Part shown: one piece after another, positions 16,101-60,669 of the stretch | How the letters are laid out: each line of letters begins with the position of its first letter | Position numbering within the stretch: position 1 is the first letter of the stretch | NCBI GenBank assembly: GCA_026874595.1 | Contig: CM049316.1 | Coordinates: forward strand, 57,979,676-58,043,675 | Source of the DNA: Sipunculus nudus | Taxonomy: Eukaryota > Annelida > Sipuncula > Golfingiida > Sipunculidae | Direction of reading: 5' to 3' | DNA: 64,000 nucleotides | Made by a program: the position numbers and the translations under genes | Notes under the pieces: generated by a model | What the model saw: only the letters and a program-made list of their open reading frames with translations | Database searches by the model: none | Told to the model about the DNA's origin: nothing

Positions 16101-19100
16101 AAGGCTCCCCCCCCCCCCCCCTTCTTTCAGCCGTCGCAAACTTTTTAATGGATTTCAGTCCATTACTAAAGTTAAGTAAATAGAGCAAATATAGAGTATG
16201 CATCGACAACATTCATGCCAAATATAAACAACAGAAGGTTATTTGTCCGTGAAACATATTTTATATATTAATATGTGGATCTTTCTTGCGTTGTAATATC
16301 TGTGACGCTTGAGTGTGAATATAAACAGGAACTTATGCAACTGCTTCCTTGGAGAGTTTACGTGGTACAACTGTTTCCGAAATGTTGAAGTTGAAATGCA
16401 AGGTGGTAGCGCAGCGACACGTGTTGTGGTTCTTTCAACATCATGCAAAAGCATTACCTGGATGAATTGGGGGATTAACCATTATTGCATGCTGACATAA
16501 GAAATGAGTGCGAAGGGATTCAGAGTCCTGTTGCTCACATTTACTGACCCTGCATTTGGGTCAGCGACAGGGTCAAATATCAGTTGAAACATGCTTATAT
16601 CCGTCACTGACAGCAGAGTTTTAATCATATACACAATAGGCCTAAATCCTGTGTAGAGAATAACATGCAACGCAGGCATTCCTTTACCGAAGGCAGTTCG
16701 GCTGTTCTCAGAGCATGATATCCTCAACGGAATTTAGAAACCAGGAAAAATCACTCAGAATGATGTGTACGTTACCAATTATCTTTTTTCATACCAGCGA
16801 GGTCACTGCAGGGACAATAGCCTATAAAAGAGGTATAGCAGAGTGTCATACACAACGCGGTCCCAGAGAACATTGATGACAAAGGTGGACAGGATTCCTT
16901 TCATAAGCATTAGATCGAAATATCTACATGACAAGAAAAATCTACAAGATTGCAAAGTTTATTAATATTTCAAATGAGAAAATATCAAGTTACCTTCCTT
17001 GTGTTTAACGAAGTTAGGAAAAAAATGCATTCGATCCGTAAAATATCTAGAACCAGTATAATAATATCAATATATCGATATAAAATATCTTCTTTAGTTC
17101 CTCTTCAGGAATAATCAAGTTACCTTTTGTGGAGCGTATCGAAATCAGGAAACCGGAGCATAACAGGCTAGACATATTTAAGATGAACAGCATTTCCAAT
17201 TTAATATTGTTTTCTATCTCACTGAACGTCATGCAGTTATTTAATTTTACGTGTCTTCTGCTTGTTTCAGCATTGGTGTCAGTTTGAAGGTGTATGCAAG
17301 TCCTGGAATGAATCTTGTAGCCCAACTACTTTACCATCAGGATGTCAACCAGGACAGGTACATTTTGCTCTTTTACTGATTTTATTCAATACTGATGATC
17401 GGGACTTATTTCTATCTTTCTATTAACCAATTCCTTCAAACTAGATACCTATAATTAAACAAACGATCTTTTTCTTTGAATGAGTTTTCAACTAAAACTT
17501 CAAATTCATTTTTCTTTTCCAGTATTACTGTTATATGCAGAGAAGGTGCATACCTGACGGACATCCCTGCGGAACACCAACACCTACTGGAACAGTGTGC
17601 CCTGACGGAATGGTAAGAGAATATTTTATTATAGTTTCAGGTTTACTTATGTCTTGTTCTTTCGGTATTTGAAATGTTCACCGTGAATATCTCTCGAGTA
17701 ATATAGACAGATTAATTCAGTTGGCCATGTTGATATAATCAATAATCAGCAGTTGTCTGTTGAAAGGAAAATCTTCTGTACATTAGTGTATGTTGCAGGA
17801 ATGTTGACGTTATTATTATGTGCTATCACGGATTCTGTCATTTCAGGTGTTTTGTTTTGAAAATATGACCTGTATACAGGCCTACGGCAACTGCTCTACT
17901 CATAATGCCTCTTACTGTCCGGATGGTCAGGTGAGTGATTTACATGTCGTTCTCCTAGCATTTCATATGCGGGATAAGTTATAGAACATTCCTTTGTTTA
18001 GTGAAATCAGAGACAGTATTGGAAACAAATTTTCATTCACGACTATCGAGTTATTTAGGCCGTCTCCTCTTTCCCTGGATACATATGTTGTACCCTAACT
18101 AATCAGAAGATTACAGAGTTTGTAAGGTATATACTTAAAGTTCCTGGTAAACTGAACCTAGGCATCAGAAGAAAATTAACCATCTGCTATTCTAACGGTT
18201 TATAATTTCCTATATACTTTCTCAAATAATATTTCATGAAAGGTTAACCTTAATAGAGGTATAATCCCTGGTTCATCGTTTATTTTGATAAACCCATAGA
18301 CCTTTTCGCTCCAGCAATTGATATGAATAGAACAATGGGCAGTGGTTTGAACAACTTTTCAGTAAGGCTACATAGTCCATTAAAGATTCATCTTTACCTT
18401 TCCCCTGAGAAGTGCCAATTTCCAATGTGAAATTTTAAGATTCCTTCAAGTTGGAGAAAATTAAATGCATATTTTGAACGCAGGATACATATGTATTAGG
18501 GCATGAAATATCTAGAATAAAAAGCATTCTCGACTATTTTCGTATCGGCTTCCTTTCTAATAGCGTATGTACCTGTTCTTTCAGTATTGGTGTCAGTCTG
18601 AAGGCTTGTGCAAGTGGTCATATGAATCCTGTGGCCCCACTGCATCTCCCTCAGCATGTCCACCAGGACAGGTAAATTTAATTCCTCGGTCACTTTATGT
18701 TCAGCTGACTGAAAGTCACGTCAGTTCTGGTGACCAGGGTTTGTCCTTCGTGCGTTCAGCCCTCAAGTCTTTCGTTAACAGGAAAAATCCTGTGGAATAT
18801 AATGGAAACATTGAAACTGATGTTCACAGAGGTCCTCGTGTAATCTCTATGGAGTCGAAATTAAATATCCCGGTGACTCATACTTTTGCAGCTCCAACTT
18901 CTTCAAGTCAAAATCATGATTATCTTCACACTAAACATGAAGTGTTTTAGCCTATTTCGTCTGAGTATATAATTCGCATTATCATGTTTTCTTTTAAATA
19001 ATATGCGTGACAGGATCAAATCTGTTAGATATCAAAGCGTGAACCTATTTGAAATGAGGACATATCAAGTTACCTTTTCTTGAGCTAATCGACATCAGGA

Positions 19101-22100
19101 ACCCAGAGCGTTAGAGGCTAGACGTATTTTGAATGAACAGTATTGCCAATTGTCATTTCAGGTGTTTCCCTTGTCATCTATCACATTGAACGTCATGCTG
19201 TTATTTAATTTTACGTGTCTTTTGCTTGTTTCAGCAATGGTGTCAGTTTGAAGGTGTATGCAAGTCCTGGAATGAATCTTGTGGCCCCACTACTGCACCA
19301 TCAGGATGTCAACCAGGACAGGTACATTTCGCTCTTTTTACTGATTTTATTCGTCACTGATGATCGGGACTTATTTCTATCTTTCTATTAACCAATTCCT
19401 TCATACTAGATACCTATAATTAAACAAACACCTATTTCTTTGAACGAGTTTTCCACTAAAACTACACATTCATATTTCTTTTCCAGCATTACTGTTATAT
19501 GCAGAGAAGGTGCATACCTGACGGAGATCCCTGCGGAACACCAACACCTACTGGAACCGTGTGCCCTGACGGAATGGTAAGAGAATATTTTTTTAATAGT
19601 TTCATGTTTACTTATGGCTTGTCCTTACGATCTTTAAATTGTTCACTGGGAATATCTTTCAAGTACTGTAGACGGACGCATAAATCAGTAAGCAGCAGTT
19701 CTCTCCTGAAAGCAGAATACTCTTTACATTTGATTATCTTGCAGCAATGTTGTCATTATTATTATGTGCTATCACGGACTCTGTCATTTCAGGTGTTTTG
19801 TTTTGATAATATGACCTGTATACAGGCCAGCGTCAACTGCTCTACTCACAATGCCTCTTCCTGTGGGACTGGTCAGGTAAGTGCTTTATAAGCCGTTCTG
19901 ATAGCGTCTCAAATTCATGATAAGTTAAAGAATACTTTTACTTTGTTAATTGAAAATCAGAGGCAGTATTGGAAACAAATTTATCGAGTTATTTAGGCCG
20001 TCTCCTCTTTCCCTTGATACATATGTTGTACCCTAACTAATCAGAAGATCACAGAGTTTGTAAGGTATATACTTAAATTTCCTGGTAAACTGAACCTAGG
20101 CATCAGAAGAAAATTAACCATCTGCTATTCTAACGGTTTATAATTTCCTTTATACTTTCTCAAATAATATTTCATGAAAGGTTTACCTTAATACAGGTAT
20201 AATTCCTGGTTCATCGTTCATTTTGATAAACTCGCAGACCTTTTCGCTCCAACAATTGATATGAAAAGAACAATGGGGCAGTGGTTTGAACAACTTTTAC
20301 AGTAAGGCTACATAGTCCATTTAAGATTCATCTTTACCTTTCCCCTGAGAAGTGACAATTTCCAATGTGAAATTTTAAGATTCCTTCAAGTTGGAGAAAA
20401 TTAAATGCATATATTGAACGCAGGACACATATGCTTTAAGGCATGAAATATCTAAAATAAAAAGCATTCTCGACTATTTTCGTATCGGCTTCCTTTCTAA
20501 TAGCGTATGTACCTGTTCTTTCAGTATTGGTGTCAGTCTGAAGGCTTGTGCAAGTGGTCATATGAATCCTGTGGCCCCACTGCATCTCCCTCAGCATGTC
20601 CACCAGGACAGGTAAATTTAATTCCTCGGTCACTAATGTTCAGCTGACTGAAAGTCACGTCAGCTCTTGTGACCGGGGTTTGTCCTTCGTTCTTTCAGCC
20701 CTTAAGACTTTCGTTAACAGGATAAATCCTGTGGAATATAATGGAAACATTGAAACTTATGTTCAGAGAGGTCCTCGTGTAATCTCCATAGAGTCGAAAT
20801 TAAATATCCCTGTGACTCATACTTTTGCAGCTCCAACTTCTTCAAGTCAAAATCATGATTATCTTCACACTAAACATGAAGTGTTTTAGCCTATTTCGTC
20901 TGAATATATAATTCGCATTATCATGTTTTTTTTAATAATATGCGTGACAGGATCAAATCTGGTAGATATCAAAGCGTGAACCTATTTGAAATGAGGACAT
21001 ATCAAGTTACCTTTTCTTGAGCTTATCGACATCAGGAGCCCAGAGCGTTAAAGGCTAGACGTATTTAGAATGAACAGTATTGCCAATTTAGTATTGTTTT
21101 CCGTGTCATCTCACATTGCACGTCATGCTGTTATTTAACTTTACGTGTCTTCTGCTTGTTTCAGCAATGGTGTCAGATTGAAGGTGTATGCAAGTCCTGG
21201 AATGAATCTTGTGGCCCCACTACTGCACCATCAGGATGTCATCCAGGACAGGTACATTTCGCTCTTTTTACTGATTATATTCGTCACTGATGATCGGGAC
21301 TTATTTCTATCCTTCTATTAACCAATTCCTTCATACTAGAAACTTATAATTAAACAAACACCTATTTCTTTGAAGGAGTTTTCCATTAAAACTACACATT
21401 CATATTTATTTTCCAGTATTACTGTTATATGCAAAGAAGGTGCATACCTGACGGAGATCCCTGCGGAACACCAACACCTACTGGAACCGTGTGCCCTGAC
21501 GGAATGGTAAGAGAATATTTTTTTTATAGTTTCATGTTTACTTATGGCTTGTCCTTACGATCTTTAAATTGTTCACTGGGAATATCTTTCAAGTAATGTA
21601 GACGGACGCATAAATCAGTAAGCAGCAGTTCTCTCCTGAAAGCAGAATACTCTGTACATTTGATTATCTTGTAGCAATGTTGTCATTATTATTATGTGCT
21701 ATCACGGACTCTGTCATTTCAGGTGTTTTGTTTTGATAATAGGACCTGTATACAGGCCAGCGTCAACTGCTCTACTCACAATGCCTCTTCCTGTGGGACT
21801 GGTCAGGTAAGTGCTTTATAAGCCGTTCTGATAGCGTCTCAAATTCATGATAAGTTAAAGAATACTTTTACTTTGTTAATTGAAAATCAGAGACAGTATT
21901 GGAAACAAATTTATCGAGTTATTTAGGCCGTCTCCTCTTTCCCTTGATACATATGTTGTACCCTTACTAATCAGAAGATCACAGAGTTTGTAAGGTATAT
22001 ACTTAAAGTTCCTGGTAAACTGAACCTAGGCATTAGAAGAAAATTAACCATCTGCTATTCTAACGGTTTATAATTTCCTTTATACTTTCTCAAATAATAT

Positions 22101-25100
22101 TTCATGAAAGGTTTACCTTAATAGAGGTATAATCCCTGGTTCATCGTTCATTTTGCTAAACTCGCAGACATTTTTGCCTCAGCAATTGATATGAAAAGAA
22201 CAATGGGGCAGTGGTTTGAACAACTTTTACAGTAAGGCTACATAGTCCATTAATGATTCATCTTTACCTTTCCCCTGAGAAGTGCCAATTTCCAATGTGA
22301 AACTTTAAGATTCCTTCAAGTTGGAGAAAATAAAATGCATATATTGAACGCAGGACACATATGTTTTAGGGCATGAAATATCTAGAATAAAAAGCATTCT
22401 CGTCTATTTTCGTATCGGCTTCCTTTCTAATAGAGTATGTACCTGTTCTTTCAGTATTGGTGTCAGTCTGAAGGCTTGTGCAAGTGGTCATATGAATCCT
22501 GTGGCCCCACTGCATCTCCCTCAGCATGTCCACCAGGACAGGTAAATTTAATTCCTCGGTCACTAATGTTCAGCTGACTGAAAGTCACGTCAGCTCTTGT
22601 GACCGGGGTTTGTCCTTCGTTCGTTCAGCCCTTAAAACTTTCGTTAACAGGATAAATCCTGTGGAATATAATGGAAACATTGAAACTTATGTTCAGAGAG
22701 GTCCTCGTGTAATCTCCATAGAGTCGAAATTAAATATCCCTGTGACTCATTCTTTTGCAGCTCCAACTTCTTCAAGTCAAAATCATGATTATCTTCACAC
22801 TAAACATGAAGTGTTTTAGCCTATTTCGTCTGAATATATAATTCGCATTATCAAGTTTTTTTTTAAATAATATGCGTAACAGGATCAAATCTGGTAGACA
22901 TCAAAGCGTGAACCTATTTGAAATGAGGACATATCAAGTTACCTTTTCTTGGGCTTATCGACATCAGGAGCCCAGAGCGTTAAAGGCTAGACGTATTTAG
23001 AATGAACAGTATTGCCAATTGTCATTTCAGGTGTTTTCCGTGTCATCTCACATTGAACGTCATGCTGTTATTTAACTTTACGTGTCTTCTGCTTGTTTCA
23101 GCAATGGTGTCAGTTTGAAGGTGTATGCAAGTCCTGGAATGAATCTTGTGGCCCCACTACTGCACCATCAGGATGTCAACCAGGACAGGTACATTTCGCT
23201 CTTTTTACTGATTATATTCGTCACTGATGATCGGGACTTATTTCTATCCTTCTATTAACCAATTCCTTCATACTAGAAACTTATAATTAAACAAACACCT
23301 ATTTCTTTGAAGGAGTTTTCCACTAAAACTACACATTCATATTTCTTTTCCAGTATTACTGTTATATGCAGAGAAGGTGCATACCTGACGGAGATCCCTG
23401 CGGAACACCAACACCTACTGGAACCGTGTGCCCTGACGGAATGGTAAGAGAATATTTTTTTTTATAGTTTCATGTTTACTTATGGCTTGTCCTTACGATC
23501 TTTAAATTGTTCACTGGGAATATCTTTCAAGTAATGTAGACGGACGCATAAATCAGTAAGCAGCAGTTCTCTCCTGAAAGCAGAATACTCTTTAAATTGG
23601 ATTATCTTGTAGCAATGTTGTCATTATTATTATGTGCTATCACGGACTCTGTCATTTCAGGTGTTTTGTTTTGATAAAATGACCTGTATACAGGCCAGCG
23701 TCAACTGCTCTACTCACAATGCCTCTTCCTGTGGGACTGGTCAGGTAAGTGCTTTATAAGCCGTTCTGATAGCGTCTCAAATTCATGATAAGTTTATTCA
23801 TGATAAGAATATTTTTACTTTGTTAATTGAAAATCAGAGACAGTATTGGAAACAAATTTATCGAGTTATTTAGGCCGTCTCCTCTTTCCCTTGATACATA
23901 TGTTGTACCCTTACTAATCAGAAGATCACAGAGTTTGTAAGGCATATACTTAAAGTTCCTGGTAAACTGAACCTAGGCATCAGAAGAAAATTAACCATCT
24001 GCTATTCTAACGGTTTATAATTTCCTTTATACTTTCTCAAATAATATATATATGAAAGGTTTACCTTAATAGAGGTATAATCCCTGGTTCATCGTTCATT
24101 TTGCTAAACTCGCAGACATTTTTGCCTCAGCAATTGATATGAAAATAACAATGGGGCAGTGGTTTGAACAACTTTTAAAGTAAGGCTACATAGTCCATTA
24201 AAGATTCATCCTTACCTTTCCCCTGAGAAGTTCCAATTTCCAATGTGAAATTTTAAGATTCCTTCAAGTTGGAGAAAATTAAATGCATATTTTGAACGCA
24301 GGATACATATGTTTTAGGGCATGAAATATCTAGAATAAAAAGCATTCTCGACTATTTTCGTATCGGCTTCCTTTCTAATAGCGTATGTACCTGTTCTTTC
24401 AGTATTGGTGTCAGTCTGAAGGCTTGTGCAAGTGGTCATATGAATCCTGTGGCCCCACTGCATCTCCCTCAGCATGTCCACCAGGACAGGTAAATTTAAT
24501 TCCTCGGTCACTAATGTTCAGCTGACTGAAAGTCACGTCAGTTCTGGTGACCAGGGTTTGTCCTTCGTGCGTTCAGCCCTCAAGTCTTTCGTTAACAGGA
24601 AAAATCCTGTGGAATATAATGGAAACATTGAAACTGATGTTCAGAGAGGTCCTCGTGTAATCTCTATGGAGTCGAAATTAAATATCCCGGTGACTCATAC
24701 TTTTGCAGCTCCAACTTCTTCAAGTCAAAATCATGATTATCTTCACACTAAACATGAAGTGTTTTAGCCTATTTCGTCTGATTATATAATTCGCATTATC
24801 ATGTTTTCTTTTAAATAATATGCGTGACAGGATCAAATCTGTTAGATATCAAAGCGTGAACCTATTTGAAATGAGGACATATCAAGTTACCTTTTCTTGA
24901 GCTAATCGACATCAGGAACCCAGAGCGTTAGAGGCTAGACGTATTTTGAATGAACAGTATTGCCAATTGTCATTTCAGGTGTTTCCCGTGTCATCTATCA
25001 CATTGAACGTCATGCTGTTATTTAATTTTACGTGTCTTCTGCTTGTTTCAGCAATGGTGTCAGTTTGAAGGTGTATGCAAGTCCTGGAATGAATCTTGTG

Positions 25101-28100
25101 GCCCCACTACTGCACCATCAGGATGTCAAGCAGGACAGGTACATTTCGCTCTTTTTACTGATTTTATTCGTCACTGATGATCGGGACTTATTTCTATCTT
25201 TCTATTAACCAATTCCTTCATACTAGATACCTATAATTAAACAAACACCTATTTCTTTGAACGAGTTTTCCACTTAAACTACACATTCATATTTCTTTTC
25301 CAGCATTACTGTTATATGCAGAGAAGGTGCATACCTGACGGAGATCCCTGCGGAACACCAACACCTACTGGAACCGTGTGCCCTGACGGAATGGTAAGAT
25401 AATATTTTTTTTATAGTTTCATGTTTACTTATGGCTTGTCCTTACGATCTTTAAATTGTTCACTGGGAATATCTTTCAAGTACTGTAGACGGACGCATAA
25501 ATCAGTAAGCAGCAGTTCTCTCCTGAAAGCAGAATACTCTTTACATTTGATTATCTTGCAGCAATGTTGTCATTATTATTATGTGCTATCACGGACTCTG
25601 TCATTTCAGGTGTTTTGTTTTGATAATATGACCTGTATACAGGCCAGCGTCAACTGCTCTACTCACAATGCCTCTTCCTGTGGGACTGGTCAGGTAAGTG
25701 CTTTATAAGCCGTTCTGATAGCGTCTCAAATTCAAGATAAGTTAAAGAATACTTTTACTTTGTTAATTGAAAATCAGAGGCAGTATTGGAAACAAATTTA
25801 TCGAGTTATTCAGGCCGTCTCCTCTTTCTCTTGATACATATGAGTGATTTACATGTCGTTCTCCTAGCATTTCATATGCGGGATAAGTTATAGAACATTC
25901 CTTTGTTTAGTGAAATCAGAGACAGTATTGGAAACAAATTTTCATTCACGACTATCGAGTTATTTAGGCCGTCTCCTCTTTCCCTGGATACATGTTGTAC
26001 CCTAACTAATCAGAAGATCACAGAGTTTGTAAGGTATATACTTAAAGTTCCTGGTAAACTGAACCTAGGCATCAGAAGAAAATTAACCATCTGCTATTCT
26101 AACGGTTTATAATTTCCTTTATACTTTCTCAAATAATATTTCATGAAAGGTTTACCTTAATAGAGGTATAATTCCTGGTTCATCGTTCATTTTGATAAAC
26201 TCGCAGACCTTTTCGCTCCAGCAATTGATATGAAAAGAACAATGGGGCAGTGGTTTGAAAAACTTTTACAGTTAGGCTACATAGTCCATTAAAGATTCAT
26301 CTTTACCTTTCCCCTGAGAAGTGCCAATTTCCAATGTGAAACTTTAAGATTCCTTCAAGTTGGAGAAAATAAAATGCATATATTGAACGCAGGACACATA
26401 TGTTTTAGGGCATGAAATATCTAAAATAAAAAGCATTCTCGTCTATTTTCGTATCGGCTTCCTTTCTAATAGAGTTTGTACCTGTTCTTTCAGTATTGGT
26501 GTCAGTCTGAAGGCTTGTGCAAGTGGTCATATGAATCCTGTGGCCCCACTGCATCTCCCTCAGCATGTCCACCAGGACAGGTAAATTTAATTCCTCGGTC
26601 ACTAATGTTCAGCTGACTGAAAGTCACGTCAGCTCTTGTGACCGGGGTTTGTCCTTCGTTCGTTCAGCCCTTAAGACTTTCGTTAACAGGATAAATCCTG
26701 TGGAATATAATGGAAACATTGAAACTTATGTTCAGAGAGGTCCTCGTGTAATCTCCATAGAGTCGAAATTAAATATCCCGGTGACTCATACTTTTGCAGC
26801 TCCAACTTCTTCAAGTCAAAATCATGATTATCTTCACACTAAACATGAAGTGTTTTAGCCTATTTCGTCTGAATATATAATTCGCATTATCTTTTTTTTA
26901 AATAATATGCGTTACAGGATCAAATCTGGTAGATATCATAGCGTGAACCTATTTGAAATGAGGACATATCAAGTTACATTTTCTTGAGCTTATCGACATC
27001 AGGAGCCCAGAGCGTTAAAGGCTAGACGTATTTAGAATGAACAGTATTGCCAATTGTCATTTCAGGTGTTTTCCGTGTCATCTCACATTGAACGTCATGC
27101 TGTTATTTAACTTTACGTGTCTTCTGCTTGTTTCAGCAATGGTGTCAGTTTGAAGGTGTATGCAAGTCCTGGAAGGAATCTTGTGGCCCCACTACTGCAG
27201 CATCAGGATGTCAACCAGGACAGGTACAATTCGCTCTTTTTAATGATTTTATTCGTCACTGATGATCGGGACTTATTTCTATCTTTCTATTAACCAATTC
27301 CTTCATACTAGATGCCTATAATTAAAGAAACACCTATTTCTTTAAACGAGTTTTCCACTAAAACTACACATTCATATTTCTTTTTCAGCATTACTGTTAT
27401 ATGCAGAGAAGGTGCATACCTGACGGAGATCCCTGCGGAACACCAACACCTAATGGAACCGTGTGGCCTGACGGAATGGTAAGAGAATATATTTTTATAG
27501 TTTCATGTTTACTTATGGCTTGTCCTTACGATCTTTAAATTGTTCACTGGGAATATCTTTCAAGTAATGTAGACGGACGCATAAATCAGTAAGCAGCAGT
27601 TCTCTCCTGAAAGCAGAATACTCTTTACATTTGATTATCTTGCAGCAATGTTGTCATTATTATTATGTGCTAACACAGACTCTGTCATTTCAGGTGTTTT
27701 GTTTTGATAAGTTGACCTCTATACAGGCCAGCGTCAACTGCTCTACTCACAATGCCTCTTCCTGTGGGACTGGTCAGGTAAGTGCTTTATAAGCCGTTCT
27801 GATAGCGTCTCAAATTCATGATAAGTTAAAGAATACTTTTACTTTGTTAATTGAAAATCAGAGGCAGTATTGGAAACAAATTTATCGAGTTATTTAGGCC
27901 GTCTCCTCTTTCCCTTGATACATATGTTGTACCCTAACTAATCAGAAGATCACAGAGTTTGTAAGGTATATACTTAAAGTTCCTGGTAAACTGAACCTAG
28001 GCATCAGAAGAAAATTAACCATCTGCTATTCTAACGGTTTATAATTTCCTTTATACTTTCTCAAATAATATTTCATGAAAGGTTTACCTTAATAGAGGTA

Positions 28101-31100: not shown

Positions 31101-34100
31101 TCGCTCTTTTTACTGATTATATTCGTCACTGATGATCGGGACTTATTTCTATACTTCTATTAACCAATTCCTTCATACTAGAAACTTATAATTAAACAAA
31201 CACCTATTTCTTTGAAGGAGTTTTCCACTAAAACTACACATTCATATTTCTTTTCCAGTATTACTGTTATATGCAGAGAAGGTGCATACCTGACGGAGAT
31301 CCCTGCGGAACACCAACACCTACTGGAACCGTGTGCCCTGACGGAATGGTAAGAGAATATTTTTTTTATAGTTTCATGTTTACTTATGGCTTGTCCTTAC
31401 GATCTTTAAATTGTTCACTGGGAATATCTTTCAAGTAATGTAGACGGACGCATAAATCAGTAAGCAGCAGTTCTCTCCTGAAAGCAGAATACTCTTTACA
31501 TTTGATTATCTTGCAGCAATGTTGTCATTATTATTATGTGCTATCACGGACTCTGTCATTTCAGGTGTTTTGTTTTGATAATATGACCTGTATACAGGCC
31601 AGCGTCAACTGCTCTACTCACAATGCCTCTTCCTGTGGGACTGGTCAGGTAAGTGCTTTATAAGCCTATCTGATAGCGTCTCAAATTCATGATAAGTTAA
31701 AGAATACTTTTACTTTGTTAATTGAAAATCACAGGCAGTATTGGAAACAAATTTATCGAGTTATTTAGGCCGTCTCCTCTTTCCCTTGATACATATGATG
31801 TACCCTTACTAATCAGAAGATCACAGAGTTTGTAAGGTATATACTTAAAGTTCCTGGTAAACTGAACCTAGGCATCAGAAGAAAATTAACCATCTGCTAT
31901 TCTAACGGTTTATAATTTCCTTTATACTTTCTCAAATAATATTTCATGAAAGGTTTACCTTAATAGAGGTATAATCCCTGGTTCATCGTTCATTTTGCTA
32001 AACTCGCAGACATTTTTGCCTCAGCAATTGATATGAAAATAACAATGGGGCAGTGGTTTGAACAACTTTTACAGTAAGGCTACATAGTCCATTAAAGATT
32101 CATCTTTACCTTTCCCCTGAGAAGTGCCAATTTCCAATGTGAAATTTTAAGATTCCTTCAAGTTGGAGAAAATTAAATGCATATATTGAACGCAGGACTC
32201 ATATGCTTTAGGGCATGAAATATCTAGAATAAAAAGCATTCTCGACTATTTTCGTATCGGCTTCCTTTCTAATAGCGTATGTACCTGTTCTTTCAGTATT
32301 GGTGTCAGTCTGAAGGCTTGTGCAAGTGGTCATATGAATCCTGTGGCCCCACTGCATCTCTCTCAGCATGTCCACCAGGACAGGTAAATTTAATTCCTCG
32401 GTCACTAATGTTCAGCTGACTGAAAGTCACGTCAGCTCTTGTGACCGGGGTTTGTCCTTCGTTCTTTCAGCCCTTAAGACTTTCGTTAACAGGATAAATC
32501 CTGTGGAATATAATGGAAACATTGAAACTTATGTTCAGAGAGGTCCTCGTGTAATCTCCATAGAGTCGAAATTAAATATCCCGGTGACTCATACTTTTGC
32601 AGCTCCAACTTCTTCAAGTCAAAATCATGATTATCTTTACACTAAACATGAAGTGTTTTAGCCTATTTTGTCTGAATATATAATTCGCATTATCATGTTT
32701 TTTTTTTTAATAATATGCGTGACAGGATCAAATCTGGTAGATATCAAAGCGTGAACCTATTTGAAATGAGGACATATCAAGTTACCTTTTCTTGAGCTTA
32801 TCGACATCAGGAGCCCAGAGCGTTAAAGGCTAGACGTATTTAGAATGAACAGTATTGCCAATTTAGTATTGTTTTCCGTGTCATCTCACATTGCTCGTCA
32901 TGCTGTTATTTAACTTTACGTGTCTTCTGCTTGTTTCAGCAATGGTGTCAGATTGAAGGTGTATGCAAGTCCTGGAATGAATCTTGTGGCCCCACTACTG
33001 CACCATCAGGATGTCAACCAGGACAGGTACATTTCGCTCTTTTTACTGATTATATTCGTCACTGATGATCGGGACTTATTTCTATCCTTCTATTAACCAA
33101 TTCCTTCATACTAGAAACTTATAATTAAACAAACACCTATTTCTTTGAAGGAGTTTTCCACTAAAACTACACATTCATATTTCTTTTCCAGCATTACTGT
33201 TATATGCAGAGAAGATGCATACCTGACGGAGATCCCTGCGGAACACCAACACCTACTGGAACCGTGTGCCCTGACGGAATGGTAAGAGAATATTTTTTTT
33301 ATAGTTTCATGTTTACTTATGGCTTGTCCTTACGATCTTTAAATTGTTCACTGGGAATATCTTTCAAGTAATGTAGACGGACGCATTATTCAGTAAGCAG
33401 CAGTTCTCTCCTGAAAGCAGAATACTCTTTACATTTGATTATCTTGCAGCAATGTTGTCATTATTATTAAGTGCTATCACGGACTCTGTCATTTCAGGTG
33501 TTTTGTTTTGATAATATGACCTGTATACAGGCCAGCGTCAACTGCTCTACTCACAATGCCTCTTCCTGTGGGACTGGTCAGGTAAGTGCTTTATAAGCCG
33601 TTCTGATAGCGTCTCAAATTCATGATAAGTTAAAGAATACTTTTACTTTGTTAATTGAAAATCAGAGGCAGTATTGGAAACAAATTTATCGAGCTATTTA
33701 GGCCGTCTCCTCTTTCCCTTGATACATATGTTGTACCCTTACTAATCAGAAGATCACAGAGTTTGTAAGGTATATACTTAAAGTTCCTGGTAAACTGAAC
33801 CTAGGGATCAGAAGAAAATTAACCATCTGCTATTCTAACGGTTTATAATTTCCTTTATACTTTCTCAAATAATATTTCATGAAAGGTTTACCTTAATAGA
33901 GGTATAATCCCTGGTTCATCGTTCATTTTGCTAAACTCGCAGACATTTTTGCCTCAGCAATTGATATAAAAATAACAATGGGGCAGTGGTTTGAACAACT
34001 TTTACAGTAAGGCTACATAGTCCATTAAAGATTCATCTTTACCTTTCCCCTGAGAAGTGCCAATTCCCAATGTGAAATTTTAAGATTCCTTCAAGTTGGA

Positions 34101-37100
34101 GAAAATTAAATGCATATATTGAACGCAGGACTCATATGCTTTAGGGCATGAAATATCTAGAATAAAAAGCATTCTCGACTATTTTCGTATCGGCTTCCTT
34201 TCTAATAGCGTATGTACCTGTTCTTTCAGTATTGGTGTCAGTCTGAAGGCTTGTGCAAGTGGTCATATGAATCCTGTGGCCCCACTGCATCTCCCTCAGC
34301 ATGTCCACCAGGACAGGTAAATTTAATTCCTCGGTCACTAATGTTCAGCTGACTGAAAGTCACGTCAGCTCTTGTGACCGGGGTTTGTCCTTCGTTCTTT
34401 CAGCCCTTAAGACTTTCGTTAACAGGATAAATCCTGTGGAATATAATGGAAACATTGAAACTTATGTTCAGAGAGGTCCTCGTGTAATCTCCATAGAGTC
34501 GAAATTAAATATCCCGGTGACTCATACTTTTGCAGCTCCAACTTCTTCAAGTCAAAATCATGATTATCTTTACACTAAACATGAAGTGTTTTAGCCTATT
34601 TTGTCTGAATATATAATTCGCATTATCATGTTTTTTTTTTAATAATATGCGTGACAGGATCAAATCTGGTAGATATCAAAGCGTGAACCTATTTGAAATG
34701 AGGACATATCAAGTTACCTTTTCTTGAGCTTATCGACATCAGGAGCCCAGAGCGTTAAAGGCTAGACGTATTTAGAATGAACAGTATTGCCAATTTAGTA
34801 TTGTTTTCCGTGTCATCTCACATTGCACGTCATGCTGTTATTTAACTTTACGTGTCTTCTGCTTGTTTCAGCAATGGTGTCAGATTGAAGGTGTATGCAA
34901 GTCCTGGAATGAATCTTGTGGCCCCACTACTGCACCATCAGGATGTCAACCAGGACAGGTACATTTCGCTCTTTTTACTGATTATATTCGTCACTGATGA
35001 TCGGGACTTATTTCTATCCTTCTATTAACCAATTCCTTCATACTAGAAACTTATAATTAAACAAACACCTATTTCTTTGAAGGAGTTTTCCACTAAAACT
35101 ACACATTCATATTTCTTTTCCAGCATTACTGTTATATGCAGAGAAGATGCATACCTGACGGAGATCCCTGCGGAACACCAACACCTACTGGAACCGTGTG
35201 CCCTGACGGAATGGTAAGAGAATATTTTTTTTTATAGTTTCATGTTTACTTATGGCTTGTCCTTACGATCTTTAAATTGTTCACTGGGAATATCTTTCAA
35301 GTAATGTAGACGGACGCATTATTCAGTAAGCAGCAGTTCTCTCCTGAAAGCAGAATACTCTTTACATTTGATTATCTTGCAGCAATGTTGTCATTATTAT
35401 TATGTGCTATCACGGACTCTGTCATTTCAGGTGTTTTGTTTTGATAATATGACCTGTATACAGGCCAGCGTCAACTGCTCTACTCACAATGCCTCTTCCT
35501 GTGGGACTGGTCAGGTAAGTGCTTTATAAGCCGTTCTGATAGCGTCTCAAATTCATGATAAGTTAAAGAATACTTTTACTTTGTTAATTGAAAATCAGAG
35601 GCAGTATTGGAAACAAATTTATCGAGCTATTTAGGCCGTCTCCTCTTTCCCTTGATACATATGTTGTACCCTTACTAATCAGAAGATCACAGAGTTTGTA
35701 AGGTATATACTTAAAGTTCCTGGTAAACTGAACCTAGGGATCAGAAGAAAATTAACCATCTGCTATTCTAACGGTTTATAATTTCCTTTATACTTTCTCA
35801 AATAATATTTCATGAAAGGTTTACCTTAATAGAGGTATAATCCCTGGTTCATCGTTCATTTTGCTAAACTCGCAGACATTTTTGCCTCAGCAATTGATAT
35901 AAAAATAACAATGGGGCAGTGGTTTGAACAACTTTTACAGTAAGGCTACATAGTCCATTAAAGATTCATCTTTACCTTTCCCCTGAGAAGTGCCAATTCC
36001 CAATGTGAAATTTTAAGATTCCTTCAAGTTGGAGAAAATTAAATGCATATATTGAACGCAGGACTCATATGCTTTAGGGCATGAAATATCTAGAATAAAA
36101 AGCATTCTCGACTATTTTCGTATCGGCTTCCTTTCTAATAGCGTATGTACCTGTTCTTTCAGTATTGGTGTCAGTCTGAAGGCTTGTGCAAGTGGTCATA
36201 TGAATCCTGTGGCCCCACTGCATCTCCCTCAGCATGTCAACCAGGACAGGTAAATTTAATTCCTCGGTCACTAATGTTCAGCTGACTGAAAGTCACGTCA
36301 GCTCTTGTGACCGGGGTTTGTCCTTCGTTCTTTCAGCCCTTAAGACTTTCGTTAACAGGATAAATCCTGTGGAATATAATGGAAACATTGAAACTTATGT
36401 TCAGAGAGGTCCTCGTGTAATCTCCATAGAGTCGAAATTAAATATCCCGGTGACTCATTCTTTTGCAGCTCCAACTTCTTCAAGTCAAAATCATGATTAT
36501 CTTCACACTAAACATGAAGTGTTTTAGCCTATTTCGTCTGAATATATAATTCGCATTATCATGTTTTTTTTTTAATAATATGCGTGACAGGATCAAATCT
36601 GGTAGATATCAAAGCGTGAACCTATTTGAAATGAGGACATATCAAGTTACCTTTTCTTGAGCTTATCGACATCAGGAGCCCAGAGCGTTAAAGGCTAGAC
36701 GTATTTAGAATGAACAGTATTGCCAATTTAGTATTGTTTTCCGTGTCATCTCACATTGCACGTCATGCTGTTATTTAACTTTACGTGTTTTCTGCTTGTT
36801 TCAGCAATGGTGTCAGATTGAAGGTGTATGCAAGTCCTGGAATGAATCTTGTGGCCCCACTACTGCACCATCAGGATGTCAACCAGGACAGGTACATTTC
36901 GCTCTTTTTACTGATTATATTCGTCACTGATGATCGGGACTTATTTCTATCCTTCTATTAACCAATTCCTTCATACTAGAAACTTATAATTAAACAAACA
37001 CCTATTTCTTTGAAGGAGTTTTCCACTAAAACTACACATTCATATTTCTTTTCCAGTATTACTGTTATATGCAGAGAAGGTGCATACCTGACGGAGATCC

Positions 37101-40100
37101 CTGCGGAACACCAACACCTACTGGAACCGTGTGCCCTGACGGAATGGTAAGAGAATATTTTTTTTATAGTTTCATGTTTACTTATGGCTTGTCCTTACGA
37201 TCTTTAAATTGTTCACTGGGAATATCTTTCAAGTAATGTAGACTGACGCATAAATCAGTAAGCAGCAGTTCTCTCCTGAAAGCAGAATACTCTTTACATT
37301 TGATTATCTTGCAGCAATGTTGTCATTATTATTATGTGCTATCACGGACTCTGTCATTTCAGGTGTTTTGTTTTGATAATATGACCTGTATACAGGCCAG
37401 CGTCAACTGCTCTACTCACAATGCCTCTTCCTGTGGGACTGGTCAGGTGAGTGCTTTATAAGCCGTTCTGATAGCGTCTCAAATTCATGATAAGTTAAAG
37501 AATACTTTTACTTTGTTAATTGAAAATCAGAGACAGTATTGGAAACAAATTTATCGAGTTATTTAGGCCGTCTCCTCTTTCCCTTGATACATATGTTGTA
37601 CCCTTACTAATCAGAAGATCACAGAGTTTGTAAGGTATATACTTAAAGTTCCTGGTAAACTGAACCTAGGCATCAGAAGAAAATTAACCATCTGCTATTC
37701 TAACGGTTTATAATTTCCTTTATACTTTCTCAAATAATATTTCATGAAAGGTTTACCTTAATAGAGGTATAATCCCTGGTTCATCGTTCATTTTGCCAAA
37801 CTCGCAGACATTTTTGCCTCAGCAATTGATATGAAAAGAACAATGGGGCAGTGGTTTGAACAACTTTTACAGTAAGGCTACATAGTCCATTAATGATTCA
37901 TCTTTACCTTTCCCCTGAGAAGTGCCAATTTCCAATGTGAAACTTTAAGATTCCTTCAAGTTGGAGAAAATAAAATGCATATATTGAACGCAGGACACAT
38001 ATGTTTTAGGGCATGAAATATCTAGAATAAAAAGCATTCTCGTCTATTTTCGTATCGGCTTCCTTTCTAATAGAGTATGTACCTGTTCTTTCAGTATTGG
38101 TGTCAGTCTGAAGGCTTGTGCAAGTGGTCATATGAATCCTGTGGCCCCACTGCATCTCCCTCAGCATGTCCACCAGGACAGGTAAATTTGATTCCTCGGT
38201 CACTAATGTTCAGCTGACTGAAAGTCACGTCAGCTCTTGTGACCGGGGTTTGTCCTTCGTTCGTTTAGCCCTTAAAACTTTCGTTAACAGGATAAATCCT
38301 GTGGAATATAATGGAAACATTGAAACTTATGTTCAGAGAGGTCCTCGTGTAATCTCCATAGAGTCGAAATTAAATATCCCTGTGACTCTCATACTTTTGC
38401 AGCTCCAACTTCTTCAAGTCAAAATCATGATTATCTTCACACTAAACATGAAGTGTTTTAGCCTATTTCGTCTGAATATATAATTCGCATTATCAAGTTT
38501 TTTTTAAAATAATATGCGTAACAGGATCAAATCTGGTAGATATCAAAGCGTGAACCTATTTGAAATGAAGACATATCAAGTTACCTTTTCTTGAGCTTAT
38601 CGACATCAGGAGCCCAGAGCGTTAAAGGCTAGACGTATTTAGAATGAACAGTATTGCCAATTTAGTATTGTTTTCCGTGTCATCTCACATTGAACGTCAT
38701 GCTGTTATTTAACTTTACGTGTCTTCTGCTTGTTTCAGCAATGGTGTCAGTTTGAAGGTGTATGCAAGTCCTGGAATGAATCTTGTGGCCCCACTACTGC
38801 ACCATCAGGATGTCAACCAGGACAGGTACATTTCGCTCTTTTTACTGATTATATTCGTCACTAATGATCGGGACTTATTTCTATCCTTCTATTAACCAAT
38901 TCCTTCATACTAGAAACTTATAATTAAACAAACACCTATTTCTTTGAAGGAGTTTTCCACTAAAACTACACATTCATATTTCTTTTCCAGTATTACTGTT
39001 ATATGCAGAGAAGGTGCATACCTGACGGAGATCCCTGCGGAACACCAACACCTACTGGAACCGTGTGCCCTGACGGAATGGTAAGAGAATATTTTTTTTT
39101 ATAGTTTCATGTGTACTTATGGCTTGTCCTTACGATCTTTAAATTGTTCACTGGGAATATCTTTCAAGTAATGTAGACGGACGCATAAATCAGTAAGCAG
39201 CAGTTCTCTCCTGAAAGCAGAATACTCTTTACATTTGATTATCTTGTAGCAATGTTGTCATTATTATTATGTGCTATCACGGACTCTGTGATTTCAGGTT
39301 TTTTGTTTTGATAATATGACCTGTATACAGGCCAGCGTCAACTGCTCTACTCACAATGCCTCTTCCTGTGGGACTGGTCAGGTAAGTGCTTCATAAGCCG
39401 TTCTGTTAGCGTCTCAACTTCATGATAAGTTAAAGAATACTTTTACTTTGTTAATTGAAAATCAGAGGCAGTATTGGAAACAAATTTATCGAGTTATTTA
39501 GGCCGTCTCCTCTTTCCCTTGATACATATGTTGTACCCTAACTAATCAGAAGATCACAGAGTTTGTAAGGTATATACTTAAAGTTCCTGGTAAACTGAAT
39601 CTAGGCATCAGAAGAAAATTAACCATCCGCTATTCTAACGGTTTATAATTTCCTTTATACTTTCTCAAATAATATTTCATGAAAGGTTTACCTTAATAGA
39701 GGTATAATCCCAGGTTCATCGTTCATTTTGATAAACTCGCAGACCTTTTCGCTCCAGCAATTGATATGAAAAGAACAATGTGGCAGTGGTTTGAACAACT
39801 TTTACAGTAAGGCTACATAGTCCATTAAAGATTCATCTTTACCTTTCCCCTGAGAAGTGCCAATTTCCAATGTGAAATTTTAAGATTCCTTCAAGTTGGA
39901 GAAAATTAAATGCATATATTGAACGCAGGACACATATGCTTTAGGGCATGAAATATCTAGAATAAAAAGCATTCTCGACTATTTTCGTATCGGCTTCCTT
40001 TCTAATAGCGTTTGTACCTGTTCTTTCAGTATTGGTGTCAGTCTGAAGGCTTGTGCAAGTGGTCATATGAATCCTGTGGCCCCACTGCATCTCCCTCAGC

Positions 40101-43100
40101 ATGTCCACCAGGACAGGTAAATTTAATTCCTCGGTCACTAATGTTCAGCTGACTGAAAGTCACGTCAGCTCTTGTGACCGGGGTTTGTCCTTCGTTCTTT
40201 CAGCTCTTAAGACTTCGTTAACAGGATAAATCCTGTGGAATATAATGGAAACATTGAAACTTATGTTCAGAGAGGTCCTCGTGTAATCCCCATAGAGTCG
40301 AAATTAAATATCCCGGTGACTCATACTTTTGAGCCTCCAACTTCTTCAAGTCAAAATCATGATTATCTTCACACTAAACATGAAGTGTTTAAGCCTATTT
40401 CGTCTGAATATATAATTCGCATTGTTATGTTTTTTCAAATAATATGCGTGACAGGATCAAATCTGGTAGATATCAAAGCGTGAACCTATTTGAAATGGGG
40501 ACATATCAAGTTACCTTTTCTTGAGCTTATCGACATCAGGAGCCCAGAGCGTTAAAGTCTAGACGTATTTAGAATAAACAGTATTGCCAAATTAGTATTG
40601 TTTTCCGTGTCATCTCACATTGAACGTCATGCTGTTATTTAACTTTACGTGTCTTCTGCTTGTTTCAGCAATGGTGTCAGTTTGAAGGTGTATGCAAGTC
40701 CTGGAATGAATCTTGTAGCCCAACTACTGCACCATCAAGATGTCAACCAGGACAGGTACATTTCGCTCTTTTTACTGATTTTATTCGTCACTGATGATCG
40801 GGACTTATTTCTATCTTTCTATTAACCAATTCCTTCATACTAGATCTCTATATTTAAACAAACACCTGTTTCTTTGAACGAGTTTTCCACTAAAACTACA
40901 CATTCATATTTCTTTTCCAGTATTACTGTTATATGCAGCGAAGGTGCATACCTGACGGACATCCCTGCGGAACACCAACACCTACTGGAACCGTGTGCCC
41001 TGACGGAATGGTAAGAGAATATTTTTTTATAAATTCATGTTTACTTATGGCTTGCCTTACCCCTTAAATTGTTTACTGGGAATATCTTTGAGTAATGTAG
41101 ACGGACGCATAAATCAGTAAGCAGCAGTACTCTCCTGAAAGCAGAATACTCTTTACATTTGATTATCTTGCAGCAATGTTGTCATTATTATGTGCTATCA
41201 CGGACTCTGTCATTTCAGGTGTTTTGTTTTGAAAATATGACCTGCATACAGGCCAGCGTCAACTGCTCTATTCACAATGCCTCTTCCTGTGGGACTAGTC
41301 AGGTTAGTGCTTTATAAACCGTTCTGCTAGCATCTCAAATTCATGATAAGTTAAAGAATACTTTTACTTTGTTAATTGAAAATCAGAGGCAGCATTGAAA
41401 ACAAATTGGCATTCGCAACTATCGCGTTATTTAGGCCGTCTCCTCTTTTCCTGGATACATGTGTTGTACTCTAACTGCTCAGAAGAAAATTGAGTTTGTT
41501 TGTGAGCTTTATACTTTAAAGTTCCTGGTAATCTGAACCTGGGCATCTGCAGAAAATTATCCGTCCGCTAATCAAACGTTTTTTTAATATCATATATACT
41601 TTTTCGAATGATATTTCATGACAGCGTCACCTATATAGAGATATAATCCTGCGGTTATCGTGCTTTTTGATTAACCCGGAGACTTTGTCGCTGAAGCAAA
41701 CGATATAAACATAACAATGGGGCAGTGGTTTGAACCATTTTTACAGTCAGACTAAATAGTTCATTTCAAAAATTCATTTTTACCTTTCCCCTGAGAACTT
41801 TTAATTGCAAATATGAAATTTTAAGATTCCTTCAGGTTGGGCACATACGTTAATGCACATATTGAGTTCAGGTCACATATGTTTTAGGGTTTGAAATATC
41901 TAGAATAAAAAACAAACTTTTTTCCGCTTCCTGTCTGATTACGTTTGTACCTGTTCTTTCAGTATTGGTGTGGATATGAAGGCTTGTGCAAGTGGTCATA
42001 TGAATCCTGTGGCCCCACTGCATCTCCTTCAGCATGTCCACCAGGACAGGTAAATTTTACTCTTTGGACACTATAAGATCAACTGACTGAAAGTCGTTTC
42101 AACTGGGGTGATAACCCTCTTTCCTTCAAGAGTTCGGCCCTTCGGTCGTTCGTTAACAGGATAAATTTTGTCGAATATATACTTGAAAATCGAAACTGAT
42201 GTTCAGAGAGGTATATCCCGGTGACTCAGTATTTTTGCAGCTCCAACTTCTCCAAGTTACAATCATAATTATCTTCACCCTGAACGTGAAATATGTTTAA
42301 GCCCATATCCTCTGAATATATGTTTCACAAAACTGATAGATATCAAAGTGTAATCCTGTTTCAAATGCGGAAGAATCAAATCTGTCAGGCTGCAAAATAT
42401 GAAGGTTTATCCTTCGTGAATTTTGCCCTTCGGTCTTTCGTTAACAGGATATATTCTGTAAAATATAGTCAAAATATTGCAAAGAGTGAACATATTTCAA
42501 ATTAGGAATTATCAAGTTACCTTTTCTGTTGCTTATCGAAATCAGGAAACCAGCGTGTTTCATGCTAGAAGTATTTAGAATGAACAGTATATCCACATTT
42601 GTTCCACTTTACGTGTCATCTATCTTACTGGACATCATGCTGCTTTTAATTAACTTTACATGCCTTCTGTTTGTTTCAGTATTGGTGTCAGTTTGAAGGT
42701 TTGTGCAAGTTCTCGAATGAATCTTGTGGCTCCACTGCTTCTCAATCAAGATGCCCATCGGGACAGGTAACGTGTACACTCGCTACTCAGTTTTGTGTCA
42801 CTAACGTTTGTGCATTGTTTCAACCCTTCCTTCAAATCTTTATCAACCGACACACAAATATTCAATATTTTCAGAAAAAGGAGGTGTTGAAGATTGGACG
42901 GGGTTTATAGTAGCGATCATCTGTCTTAGTGGGTTTGCATTTCGTTTGTATTGACTTAGCCCTTTTCGTTTTTGGTGTCACATTTAAAGAATGCAAAAGG
43001 TTACGCATGGATCACACAGCCCAAGGGAATTTTCCTAAACACGTGCAACTGGACAGATATTTTCTTACTTATGCTGCTGTATTGGGAATGTTCATGATTT

Positions 43101-52100: not shown

Positions 52101-53829
52101 GAAGGTGAACCCACTCAGATATCAAGTATTATTTTTATAATATACATATCTCGCATATCACAGGGGTAAAAATTAGTTATAGTGACCTAGAAGAAGGGTT
52201 ATAAACTCGCTCAGACCATAGTTGTTTAATGTTTCAGTATCGTTACAGAAAACAGTTTAAATTACATTTGATTCTTTCAAGATTTTAAAAGTGTTTGATT
52301 CCAGGGTGTTTAATGATGAATTATTCCTTTTTATAAGAATTTCCTAGACGGACAATGAATATTGAGTTCCAATTTTACAGAAATACAATATGGGGCTTTG
52401 AGCGCGGAGGAGAGACAAATTTTATCTTCCTGGCAACAGATTTTTCTGACACACCAGGTAACCAGACGCTCAGATCTGTACCGATCACTTTCCCAGACTG
52501 CACCACGGTAAGTTGTAATGACCGACAAACAGGGAGATAAGCTTGTAAAGTGAACACATGTATACCTTTGCATATTCGAACGTCCATGGAGCAGATGTAC
52601 CCTTCCACTTCCCACTAATTTTAAACCTGATCTGATCAGCTTTGCTTTATATAAGATTAAACAAGCGTCATTCTCAAACAATAATCCCTTTATAATGTGC
52701 AGTTTAGACTGTTGTGAATTCCAGAAACGATTTAAGGATATATCATTCTACAACTACTTTGCTGTATGGCATGTTATTTACATTCTCATCCGATGAAATG
52801 CGGAAAATTTTCTCATAAAGCCGTAATACTACCAATGATTAAAATTTTTGATGAAACGAGATACTAGCCCGATTACTTAGATCCAGTATAAAAAGAAACC
52901 TTACATGCAATACTGGTAAACTGATATCCGAGAGAACATCATTTTACAGTACCGTTGACTGCGGGGGGTTCTGTTGACCATTGATCACTTGCACAAAGAT
53001 GTACGTGTCAGATCGGATGTAAATATTCTAAACCAGCAAATGGCACTTCATGATTACACTGCAAGCTGCAATGAAGTATCACATTGTACTTTTGTCATCA
53101 CACTTTCATCATATATCATATTTGGTTGATTCAATGAGTGCAGGATCTAAAGGTAAAAACGTATTAAACATATTAGAAAAAAATTCACCACATATATTCG
53201 TTGGCACTCCTTTTGCCGGTCTCATTAAGTTATATATCAAACTGTGAAAACGTTTAACAGATGAGAAATTATTTTTGTATACTTTAACATATTTAATTGA
53301 TATCCCTTCTTTCAGTGCGGAGGAAGAAACGCTTTGTCTAAACACGCTGTAGCGTCACAGATGTTCCGTACCGGTTGCAACGACCAGATCGGTGCTATTC
53401 CTGATGAATGTGGTGTATGTAACGGCCTCGGGGATTCCTGCAATAAGCCGGACTGTGCAAATGTCCGCGGGGGATGTGAGAAACTTTGTGTTTCCGTTTT
53501 GTCGCACTTCTGTTCATATTTATAAAGAAAAACACTGGTGTTTTAATTCCTAAAGAGAATGTTCATTGATGTGCAAAGTAAACAACCGAAAAAGTTCTAG
53601 CAAGCTTCAAGCCAGAACACCGGTAAGATCTAACTAAAAAGCTAGTTTTAAATAATTAATCCATGGTTTTATGTGAGATGATAAATGCTATATTAATAAA
53701 AAGAAAACTTGTAACTATATCTGTGAAATATAGGAACACCATAGTGAGCATTACACTTAGTGAGCGATTTACATGTTATGGTGAGTACAGTATTTAACTT
53801 GAATTCAAGAATGTCGATATGCAATTTAA

Positions 53830-53882
<53 letters not shown>

Positions 53883-59800: not shown

Positions 59801-60622
59801 TAAATGCTATCTTAGGCATATCGTAGCATATCGTATAGTTTTAGTTTTTATTTTTTTTGTATTGCACTATATAGCTGGTCAACACCCATTTTCTGACATT
59901 ATGTCTCTGTGACCCAGTTCAGATAAGATTCTGAGATAACTTATGTGTATCATTCTAATTGTCCATATGCATATTTATCAGGATTAAACAAAACTGTGTA
60001 GTGTTCATTGCTGGGTATGTCCGTTACCACGGTCAATGTCGCCTTCACCTTTAGTCTCGTTACAGTAAATTTTAGTCCTTTCTTGCTCTCAATTGCAACT
60101 ACATGTGCAGTTTCTCTTAAATTTGCTTTTATGTATTTGCGAGTGCAAATGCAACTTCATCTTGTTTTAAATCCAACTTATGAACGAAAATGACACATTT
60201 TTCGCAGCAATATGTAAATAACAAATGTAATTGTAACATCATGTGTCACACCTTTGCTCAGGATCTCTACCCGGTAGTTGCTGTTACCGGAAGTACTGAG
60301 GTTGGATCGTGTGACCCCATTGAGCTGTTCGCTGAGAGCAGTGCTGACGGACTCTGTGGAAGTCCTCTGACGTACTCCTGGCAGGTCTACGAGGAGGGTT
60401 CAGGTAAGCAGTATACAAAGCTCCTCCATATGTCTGGAAGATATGCACACTATGGGACCTCTCGATAACAAACGCTGACAAAGCCGGTTTTTAATTGTAC
60501 ATAATAGAAGAAGCCGCATTGAAAAGGTTAAAGATTTCAGTAATTAATTCCTAATGGGGCCATCTCAGATGTGTCAATAATAGAGAGTTGCCTGTAATAG
60601 CGCGGTGCCCGCATTAATGGTT

Positions 60623-60669
<47 letters not shown>

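Follow-up and report, generated by a model that had tools for sequence, protein, structure and literature searches.

What kind of locus is formed by the tandem series of small, very similar exons that fills the centre of this window (the whole stretch of 64,000 nucleotides of Sipunculus nudus DNA analysed here), how many units does it hold, and to which gene does it belong? We consider it likely that the series is a coding multi-exon tandem repeat, of the human LPA KIV-2 kind, in the N-terminal part of a single-pass receptor of the REJ type. The recurrence of exons A, B, C and D in fixed order with their introns, proposed in an earlier note, was confirmed by an exon search, and the period of about 1.93 kb that a self-comparison was expected to reveal was indeed found, the dominant self-match spacings being 1930-1939 bases, dense over about 17-42 kb. 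The count of twelve units had to be raised to 13 in register, plus a fourteenth B-like exon, and the predicted contribution of the array accordingly rises from the proposed 1390 or so residues to 1508 (13 units of 116 aa).

As delimited by the exon series and the unit alignment, the array lies at 17271..42049 on the forward strand, where the other parts of this gene described below also lie. Each unit consists of exons B (87 nt), C (90), D (84) and A (87), encoding 116 aa with 16 cysteines, and the B exons start at 17271, 19235, 21165, 23102, 25052, 27137, 29075, 31007, 32940, 34872, 36805, 38739 and 40669. Unit lengths are 1930-2085 and the introns mostly measure 165, 216, 648 and 552-563 bases. 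The right edge carries the fourteenth, diverged B-like exon (42680..42766), 80% identical to exon A. No exon was found at 16973, where the array had been said to begin; unit-like sequence extends from about 17114 to about 42769, and a weak piece of 55 bases lies at 16966-17019. All 53 exons, the B-like one included, are preceded by AG and followed by GT, keep the frame and are free of stops, in line with the phase 0-0 and good splice sites previously ascribed to them, and 51 of them have four cysteines. The length of 116 aa holds in 13 of 13 units and the 16 cysteines in 12, unit 6 having 14, with Cys4 of exon C changed to Trp and Cys2 of exon D to Ser (27389..27777). Three or four N-glycosylation motifs are present per unit.

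The surrounding gene is best explained as encoding a predicted single-pass REJ-type receptor, whose product would comprise a signal-peptide-like exon, some 70 four-cysteine exons, a Thr/Ser-rich part that also has a WAP domain, then REJ, a weak GPS match and a single transmembrane (TM) segment. The signal-peptide-like exon (1136..1236; ..GLCSALVLLFCGTAELIIVEPPTTNMMPVCPAEK), of which the sequence and splice sites were read by eye, is 56% identical to a similar exon of a neighbouring paralogue at 89237; it is entered in phase 1 and left in phase 0, and it has two cysteines inside its hydrophobic stretch and one after it, in CPAEK. Older module exons, recognised by exon search and tree, follow at 7186..15481 as E1, F1 and then three E-F-E'-F' units, with E starts at 10505, 11378, 12236, 12859, 13535 and 14415 and F starts at 10880, 11681, 12603, 13186, 13916 and 15377. 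The tree, given without support values, groups E2/E4/E6, E3/E5/E7, F2/F4/F6 and F3/F5/F7. To judge from these exons, E-F-E'-F' is a second, older four-exon array upstream of the 13-unit one, which is itself the most recent portion of a longer run of four-cysteine exons.

To the right of the array, sequence reading gave a compound module exon of 45 aa and six cysteines (43444..43578), and the exon search three further diverged module exons (43827-43913, 44312-44392 and 45852-45935). The last module exon (46381..46429; three cysteines, phase 1 end by eye) matches a paralogue stretch at about 107955-108026 that has three cysteines too. An open frame at 46766..47677 contains a Thr/Ser/Pro/Glu-rich stretch, with a 21-base tandem repeat at 47051-47310, and a WAP domain at about 47465-47599 (E 1.1e-7). 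Comparison with the paralogue identified conserved ectodomain blocks at 48114..58469, most of them without a Pfam family, an IPT/TIG-like match near 56 kb (E 6e-4, 20.2 bits) staying below the cut-off of 20.9. In profile searches, the REJ region spans 60259..64000 and runs on past the right end of the window; REJ (PF02010) matched one exon at 62657-62917 with E 7e-13 and the joined exons with E 6e-30, the best stretch covering profile positions 52-212 of 452, and a genome-wide profile scan recovered REJ at the same locus. A weak fn3-like piece to its right (E 0.0011) fell below cut-off, as did GPS (PF01825) at about 74.3 kb in window coordinates (E 0.0063, 17.5 bits against 22.5), which is 87.5% identical in the paralogue. 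A rough hydropathy scan of open frames of at least 30 aa over 73000-89100 gave three TM segments (75088, 79917 and 88725), and the 11 TM segments of the polycystin channel part were not found in it. The segment at 79917 in window coordinates, taken as the TM exon (near 79.9 kb), was matched in the paralogue, while the candidate at 75088 had no paralogue match and that at 88725 none but simple repeat. The earlier placement of the array at the N-terminus of a REJ-type protein thus stands in so far as it lies behind the signal-peptide-like exon and before the REJ region, in one reading direction and in an order common to the paralogue, but the array does not make up the whole four-cysteine series there.

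The collinear paralogue, at +89 to +151 kb, is without such an array, and array unit DNA had no match within its region; lying next door, it is a natural control. Pooled over 951 codons in 15 blocks, dN between the two genes is 0.20 and dS 1.29, so that the surrounding gene looks constrained, with the reservation that the blocks were hand-picked as gap-free, that dS is near saturation and that 5 of 16 blocks gave no estimate singly. A 131-aa ectodomain exon had two genome matches at E <= 0.001, both in the tandem genes, and no third neighbouring paralogue was seen to about +204 kb. No module series was found in 60 kb to the left of the window. At another REJ locus, on C13, the 40 kb scanned, lying roughly 8-48 kb upstream from where REJ first matches, gave no modules above 9.4 bits.

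Whole-unit identity, introns included, is 96.0-99.7% among units 2-12; unit 1 is 91.8-93.8% identical to these and unit 13 85.4-86.2%. The four-gamete test was failed by 441 of 1275 pairs of informative sites (69/338 within 300 bases, 372/937 beyond). As the units read, this combination of a homogenised centre, diverged ends and mosaic variants is concerted evolution, brought about by unequal crossing-over and conversion. The unit number could alternatively be wrong in the assembly, through expansion of a shorter array, or of two haplotypes in series, or through collapse of a longer one, and a slip of the assembler is possible among units 7-10, whose identity is at least 98.7%, with units 9 and 10 reaching 99.7% and showing a single private substitution apiece. 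We hold this to be improbable, since private substitutions number 7-32 in each of the nine remaining middle units, intron lengths vary between some units, and no multi-unit block recurs as a block, by eye, in the identity matrix. Moreover, exon A DNA searched against the 1.43-Gb assembly (E <= 0.001) gave at least 14 matches, and the 14 listed all lie in the array, being the 13 A exons and the B-like exon; no second copy elsewhere, and no second allele of the array, was seen in this search. On the assembled sequence, that a long array exists is safe, its exact unit count less so. Annotation from short reads or exon by exon would probably get the number of units wrong.

Phase-0 exons with lengths in multiples of three might instead let cells vary the number or choice of units by splicing, with length isoforms made through skipping, or a Dscam-like choice, all 53 exons being joinable in frame in any order. 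Dscam cassettes are divergent alternative exons; units 2-12 differ by just 0.3-4.0% over the whole unit, so that choosing among such near-identical copies would yield little sequence diversity. The acceptor and donor sequences are also near-uniform within each exon type, and we give splicing diversity little credence.

At the DNA level, the exons of the array change less than its introns. Over the 13 units, the 348 exon columns contain no gaps, whereas 7.7 would be expected from the 42 indel events in introns (Poisson P of none 5e-4); for units 2-12, 2.8 would be expected from 14 such events (P 0.06). Variable gap-free columns amount to 48/348 in exons against 405/1520 in introns for the 13 units (P 1.7e-7), and to 21/348 against 156/1577 for units 2-12 (P 0.024). 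Replacing and silent changes stand at 19:3 in units 2-12 and 39:10 in the 13 units, not different from a neutral expectation of about 26:8, and units 2-12 have a mean dN of 0.0154 and dS of 0.0111 (ratio 1.39), so that any constraint on the protein encoded by the individual young copies is weak or below detection. Unit 6 looks relaxed, with 7 private changes in exons and 15 in introns against 12 and 96 for the ten remaining middle units (P 0.02); when unit 6 is left out, the exon-intron contrast of private changes has P 0.054. The neutral ratio and the apparent relaxation of unit 6 would suit a by-product, in which intron-exon DNA expanded neutrally and is spliced but unselected, or spliced no longer, a reading that is very hard to sustain given 53 exons with neither a stop nor a broken GT/AG, a gap-free exon alignment, exons that change less than introns and a flanking gene that looks constrained.

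The best reading of the coding repeat is that of a coding VNTR which would set the length of a glycosylated stalk. The distances Cys4-Cys1, Cys1-Cys2 and Cys2-Cys3 each take a single value in 61 of the 68 four-cysteine exons, and Cys3-Cys4 spans 6-18; these exons are not independent, because 52 of the 70 supplied are array copies. A disulfide module seems to straddle the exon junctions, each of which would join the CPxxQ of one exon to three cysteines of the next in a two-disulfide module of about 21 residues, separated from the following one by a linker of variable length. Some 70 modules, with their glycosylation motifs, would form a long stalk; we infer both this stalk and the straddling module less firmly than the array itself. 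The two cysteines lost from unit 6 are Cys 1 and 3 of one such module and point to 1-3/2-4 pairing, at odds with the exon at 43444, which as read has the first and last module cysteines without the two middle ones. The LDL-receptor class A repeat has six cysteines and an acidic, calcium-binding second half. Module spacing resembles its first half, but the module has four cysteines and lacks the acidic calcium lobe; LDL-A was not matched in a Pfam search of the modules, and the best PDB profile match among the 18 listed (LRP1, 2fyj) was not significant (E 0.25). For the modules, nothing exceeded the curated cut-offs of Pfam and NCBIfam, and a single-sequence search of the PDB gave no match up to E 10. 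Chitin_bind_1 (E 0.065), F-box-like (E 0.0012, 17 residues), Tcp10_C (E 0.0026, 13 residues) and other weak profile matches, all below cut-off, were dismissed as chance. In protein database searches of limited weight, two joined units (232 aa) gave 4017 candidates, none at E <= 0.1, and the 98-aa membrane-near exon no candidate.

Speculatively, the surface of the stalk might bind ligands multivalently, in the manner of gamete-recognition proteins that have repeated domains. VERL repeats evolve in concert, and the best-known REJ family members receive egg jelly. A fuller scheme, which we offer as doubtful, would have an unnamed class of exon-straddling four-cysteine mini-modules forming a heavily glycosylated stalk, its length a hypervariable, allele-specific trait set by the four-exon VNTR, working in recognition (e.g., sperm-egg) like VERL repeats, with the cysteine loss of unit 6 reflecting the module's own pairing.

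In the excerpts of the sea urchin study used here, SpREJ1 and SpREJ2 have only one or two TM segments, without the large TM part, and the REJ/PKD1 family shares with the present gene a REJ region and, as a candidate below cut-off in the latter, a GPS-like stretch before the membrane; the ectodomains described there have lectin domains, PKD repeats, EGF, WSC or SUEL, and these excerpts do not mention four-cysteine exon arrays (PMC1934368). Abalone VERL, a reproductive protein of the egg coat, shows domain repeat expansion with 23 ZP-N, and repeat expansions in general are linked with concerted evolution, according to the portion of the source consulted (PMC8830517); the likeness is that of domain repeat expansion, VERL being built of ZP-N domains in the egg coat, without REJ. 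Tetrahymena LRR genes, a ciliate family of thousands, have arrays of 90-bp exons and, like the present array, equal, frame-preserving small exons with something split over the junctions, a codon there and a module here (PMC6564038, in part). Their unit is a single exon with phase-2 introns, whereas here a four-exon unit in phase 0 is found at one locus.

To our knowledge, large multi-exon coding VNTRs are few and mostly human. In the partial accounts drawn upon, LPA KIV-2 has two exons in 5.6 kb, encodes kringle domains and is polymorphic, with 1 to about 40 units; shared with the array are a multi-exon unit with introns in tandem within one gene, very similar units and a large share of the protein, and the differences are four exons, 1.93 kb, 13 units, four-cysteine modules without a name and a REJ-type single-pass protein. 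Since such coding arrays are already known from LPA, the novelty is the setting in a REJ gene and not the kind of locus; among the papers that a literature search listed, none dealt with such an array in a REJ gene, which is not proof of absence. By analogy with the lipoprotein(a) gene, the outer stalk could grow or shrink by whole four-exon blocks, and, if unit number varies between individuals, a surface protein would have a length polymorphism open to direct measurement. A locus of the LPA KIV-2 kind would now be found in a REJ-type receptor.

Self-matches within the window showed a peak of spacing at 1930-1939 bases, which bears out the 1.93-kb period proposed in the earlier note, and were dense from about 17 to 42 kb. 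The exons of the array, located by pattern search and a small profile, are B (QWCQFEGVCKSWNESCGPTTAPSGCQPGQ), C (YYCYMQRRCIPDGDPCGTPTPTGTVCPDGM), D (VFCFDNMTCIQASVNCSTHNASSCGTGQ) and A (YWCQSEGLCKWSYESCGPTASPSACPPGQ). Thirteen B-C-D-A units stand in register, one more than the twelve claimed earlier, the first B lying at 17271 and the last A at 41963-42049, with a 14th B-like exon beyond them at 42680. AG/GT flanks were found in all 53 exons of the array (53/53) and stops in none. All 14 matches listed for exon A in the 1.43-Gb assembly lay inside the array, 13 of them being the A exons themselves and one the 14th B-like exon. The proposed 116 residues per unit were correct, and the proposed 16 Cys hold for every unit but unit 6 with its 14. 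In unit 5, a 152-base extra stretch (25840-25991) of the intron between D and A resembles a local duplication of unit sequence.

The series of four-Cys exons in this gene is led by a signal-peptide-like exon (1136-1236) and comprises E1, then F1, an older array in which the four-exon unit E-F-E'-F' occurs three times (10505-15481; tree without support values), and the 13-fold array. The exon at 42680 is followed by a compound module exon at 43444, further module exons at 43827, 44312 and 45852, and the last one at 46381-46429. A C-like exon remnant lies directly right of the array (43195-43240), with no donor seen at the usual place. Outside the module series, exon joins are predicted from sequence. 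An open frame rich in Thr/Ser and holding a WAP domain (E 1.1e-7) precedes ectodomain blocks that are conserved, an IPT/TIG-like stretch (E 6e-4, slightly under cut-off), a REJ domain (E 6e-30, search on joined exons) and, past the window's edge, a weak GPS (E 0.0063, under cut-off) and a single TM exon that the paralogue has too. A 21-base coding tandem repeat (47051-47310, 12.4 copies) adjoins the WAP domain.

Cysteine spacing was evaluated in 70 module exons (first, compound and last exon excluded), 68 of them with four Cys; array copies account for 52 of the 70, so these exons are not independent. A single value was seen in 61/68 for each of three distances, Cys4-Cys1 (spanning the junction), Cys1-Cys2 and Cys2-Cys3, while Cys3-Cys4 ranged from 6 to 18. 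In both paralogues, only one Cys lies behind the hydrophobic stretch of the first exon, and three lie in the last module exon (paralogue exon ends being predicted). Because of these near-constant spacings and terminal Cys numbers, the folding unit is likely to straddle exons, as CPxxQ/xxC-x5-C-x6-C split by a phase-0 intron (slash). The compound exon, as read, keeps Cys 1 and 4 without Cys 2 and 3. The best PDB match of the module profile, to the first half of an LRP1 LDL-A repeat, was not significant (E 0.25). N-glycosylation motifs number 50 in the array's 1508 residues, three or four per unit.

The array is a homogenised centre with diverged ends. Whole-unit identity, introns counted, was 96.0-99.7% among units 2-12; compared with these, unit 1 reached about 92% and unit 13 about 86%. 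Variants shared between units fall into blocks whose groupings conflict: alignment columns 112-211 group units 2,5,6, most informative columns in 994-1215 group units 2,5,6,12, and several in 1341-1474 group units 3,5,6,11. Of 1275 informative-site pairs, 441 failed the four-gamete test. Most middle units are clearly distinct copies, since 9/11 have at least 7 private substitutions; units 9 and 10 have 1 each, and the exact unit count is least safe near units 7-10.

Variable columns were fewer in exons than in introns, both over 13 units (48/348 vs 405/1520, P 1.7e-7) and over units 2-12 (21/348 vs 156/1577, P 0.024). Exon columns had no gaps over 13 units, where the 42 intron events predict 7.7 (P 5e-4; the prediction for units 2-12 by themselves is 2.8, P 0.06). 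Frame and splice signals have thus been kept. Replacement and silent changes stood at 19:3 in units 2-12 (dN/dS 1.39) and 39:10 in all 13, a neutral proportion, and no clear filter is seen at the amino-acid level between young array copies. Unit 6 is an outlier among middle units, with an excess of private exon changes (7 exon and 15 intron, compared with 12 and 96 summed over the other ten, P 0.02). It has lost two Cys within one inferred module, Cys 1 and Cys 3 (27389-27777); by post hoc arithmetic, the chance that a second loss, falling on any of the other 207 array Cys, would hit the same module is 3/207. Two N-glycosylation motifs usual in most units are also missing from unit 6, and one motif is private to it.

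A collinear tandem paralogue (L010-L016) spans about +89.2 to +151.5 kb in window coordinates, and this second gene matches the first block by block. Pooled dN was 0.20 and dS, near saturation, 1.29, over 951 codons in 15 picked blocks, a further block, perhaps recently converted, being omitted; singly, 5/16 blocks gave no estimate. The paralogue has its own E-, F- and C-like module exons, and no array of such kind was found in its region by module exon and DNA comparison. A 131-aa ectodomain exon matched only these two genes, and REJ had 32 matches genome-wide across seven contigs. The REJ-region exon 61449-61673, with 97% protein identity to the paralogue and 95% over 228 bases, is perhaps a recent conversion tract; the next two matching blocks have 76-77% DNA identity and some further blocks 86-89%. 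Repeats of about 340 bases are common to an intron of the array gene, at about 74.4-78.4 kb in window coordinates (L009:1970-3800), and a place on C13, a contig with another REJ locus (L022:1120-5200).

We read the array gene as a putative coding VNTR in which unit number would set the length of a glycosylated stalk; units would be spliced together, alleles may vary in their number, and the protein may have a recognition role. Sea urchin REJ proteins 1 and 2, as described in PMC1934368, likewise carry just one or two TM segments. Repeat expansion within a fertilisation protein is described for VERL (PMC8830517), and arrays of small exons for Tetrahymena LRR genes (PMC6564038). The closest known kind to the sipunculan array, going by the account in PMC11462820, is the LPA KIV-2 array, of two exons, 5.6 kb and 1 to about 40 units.
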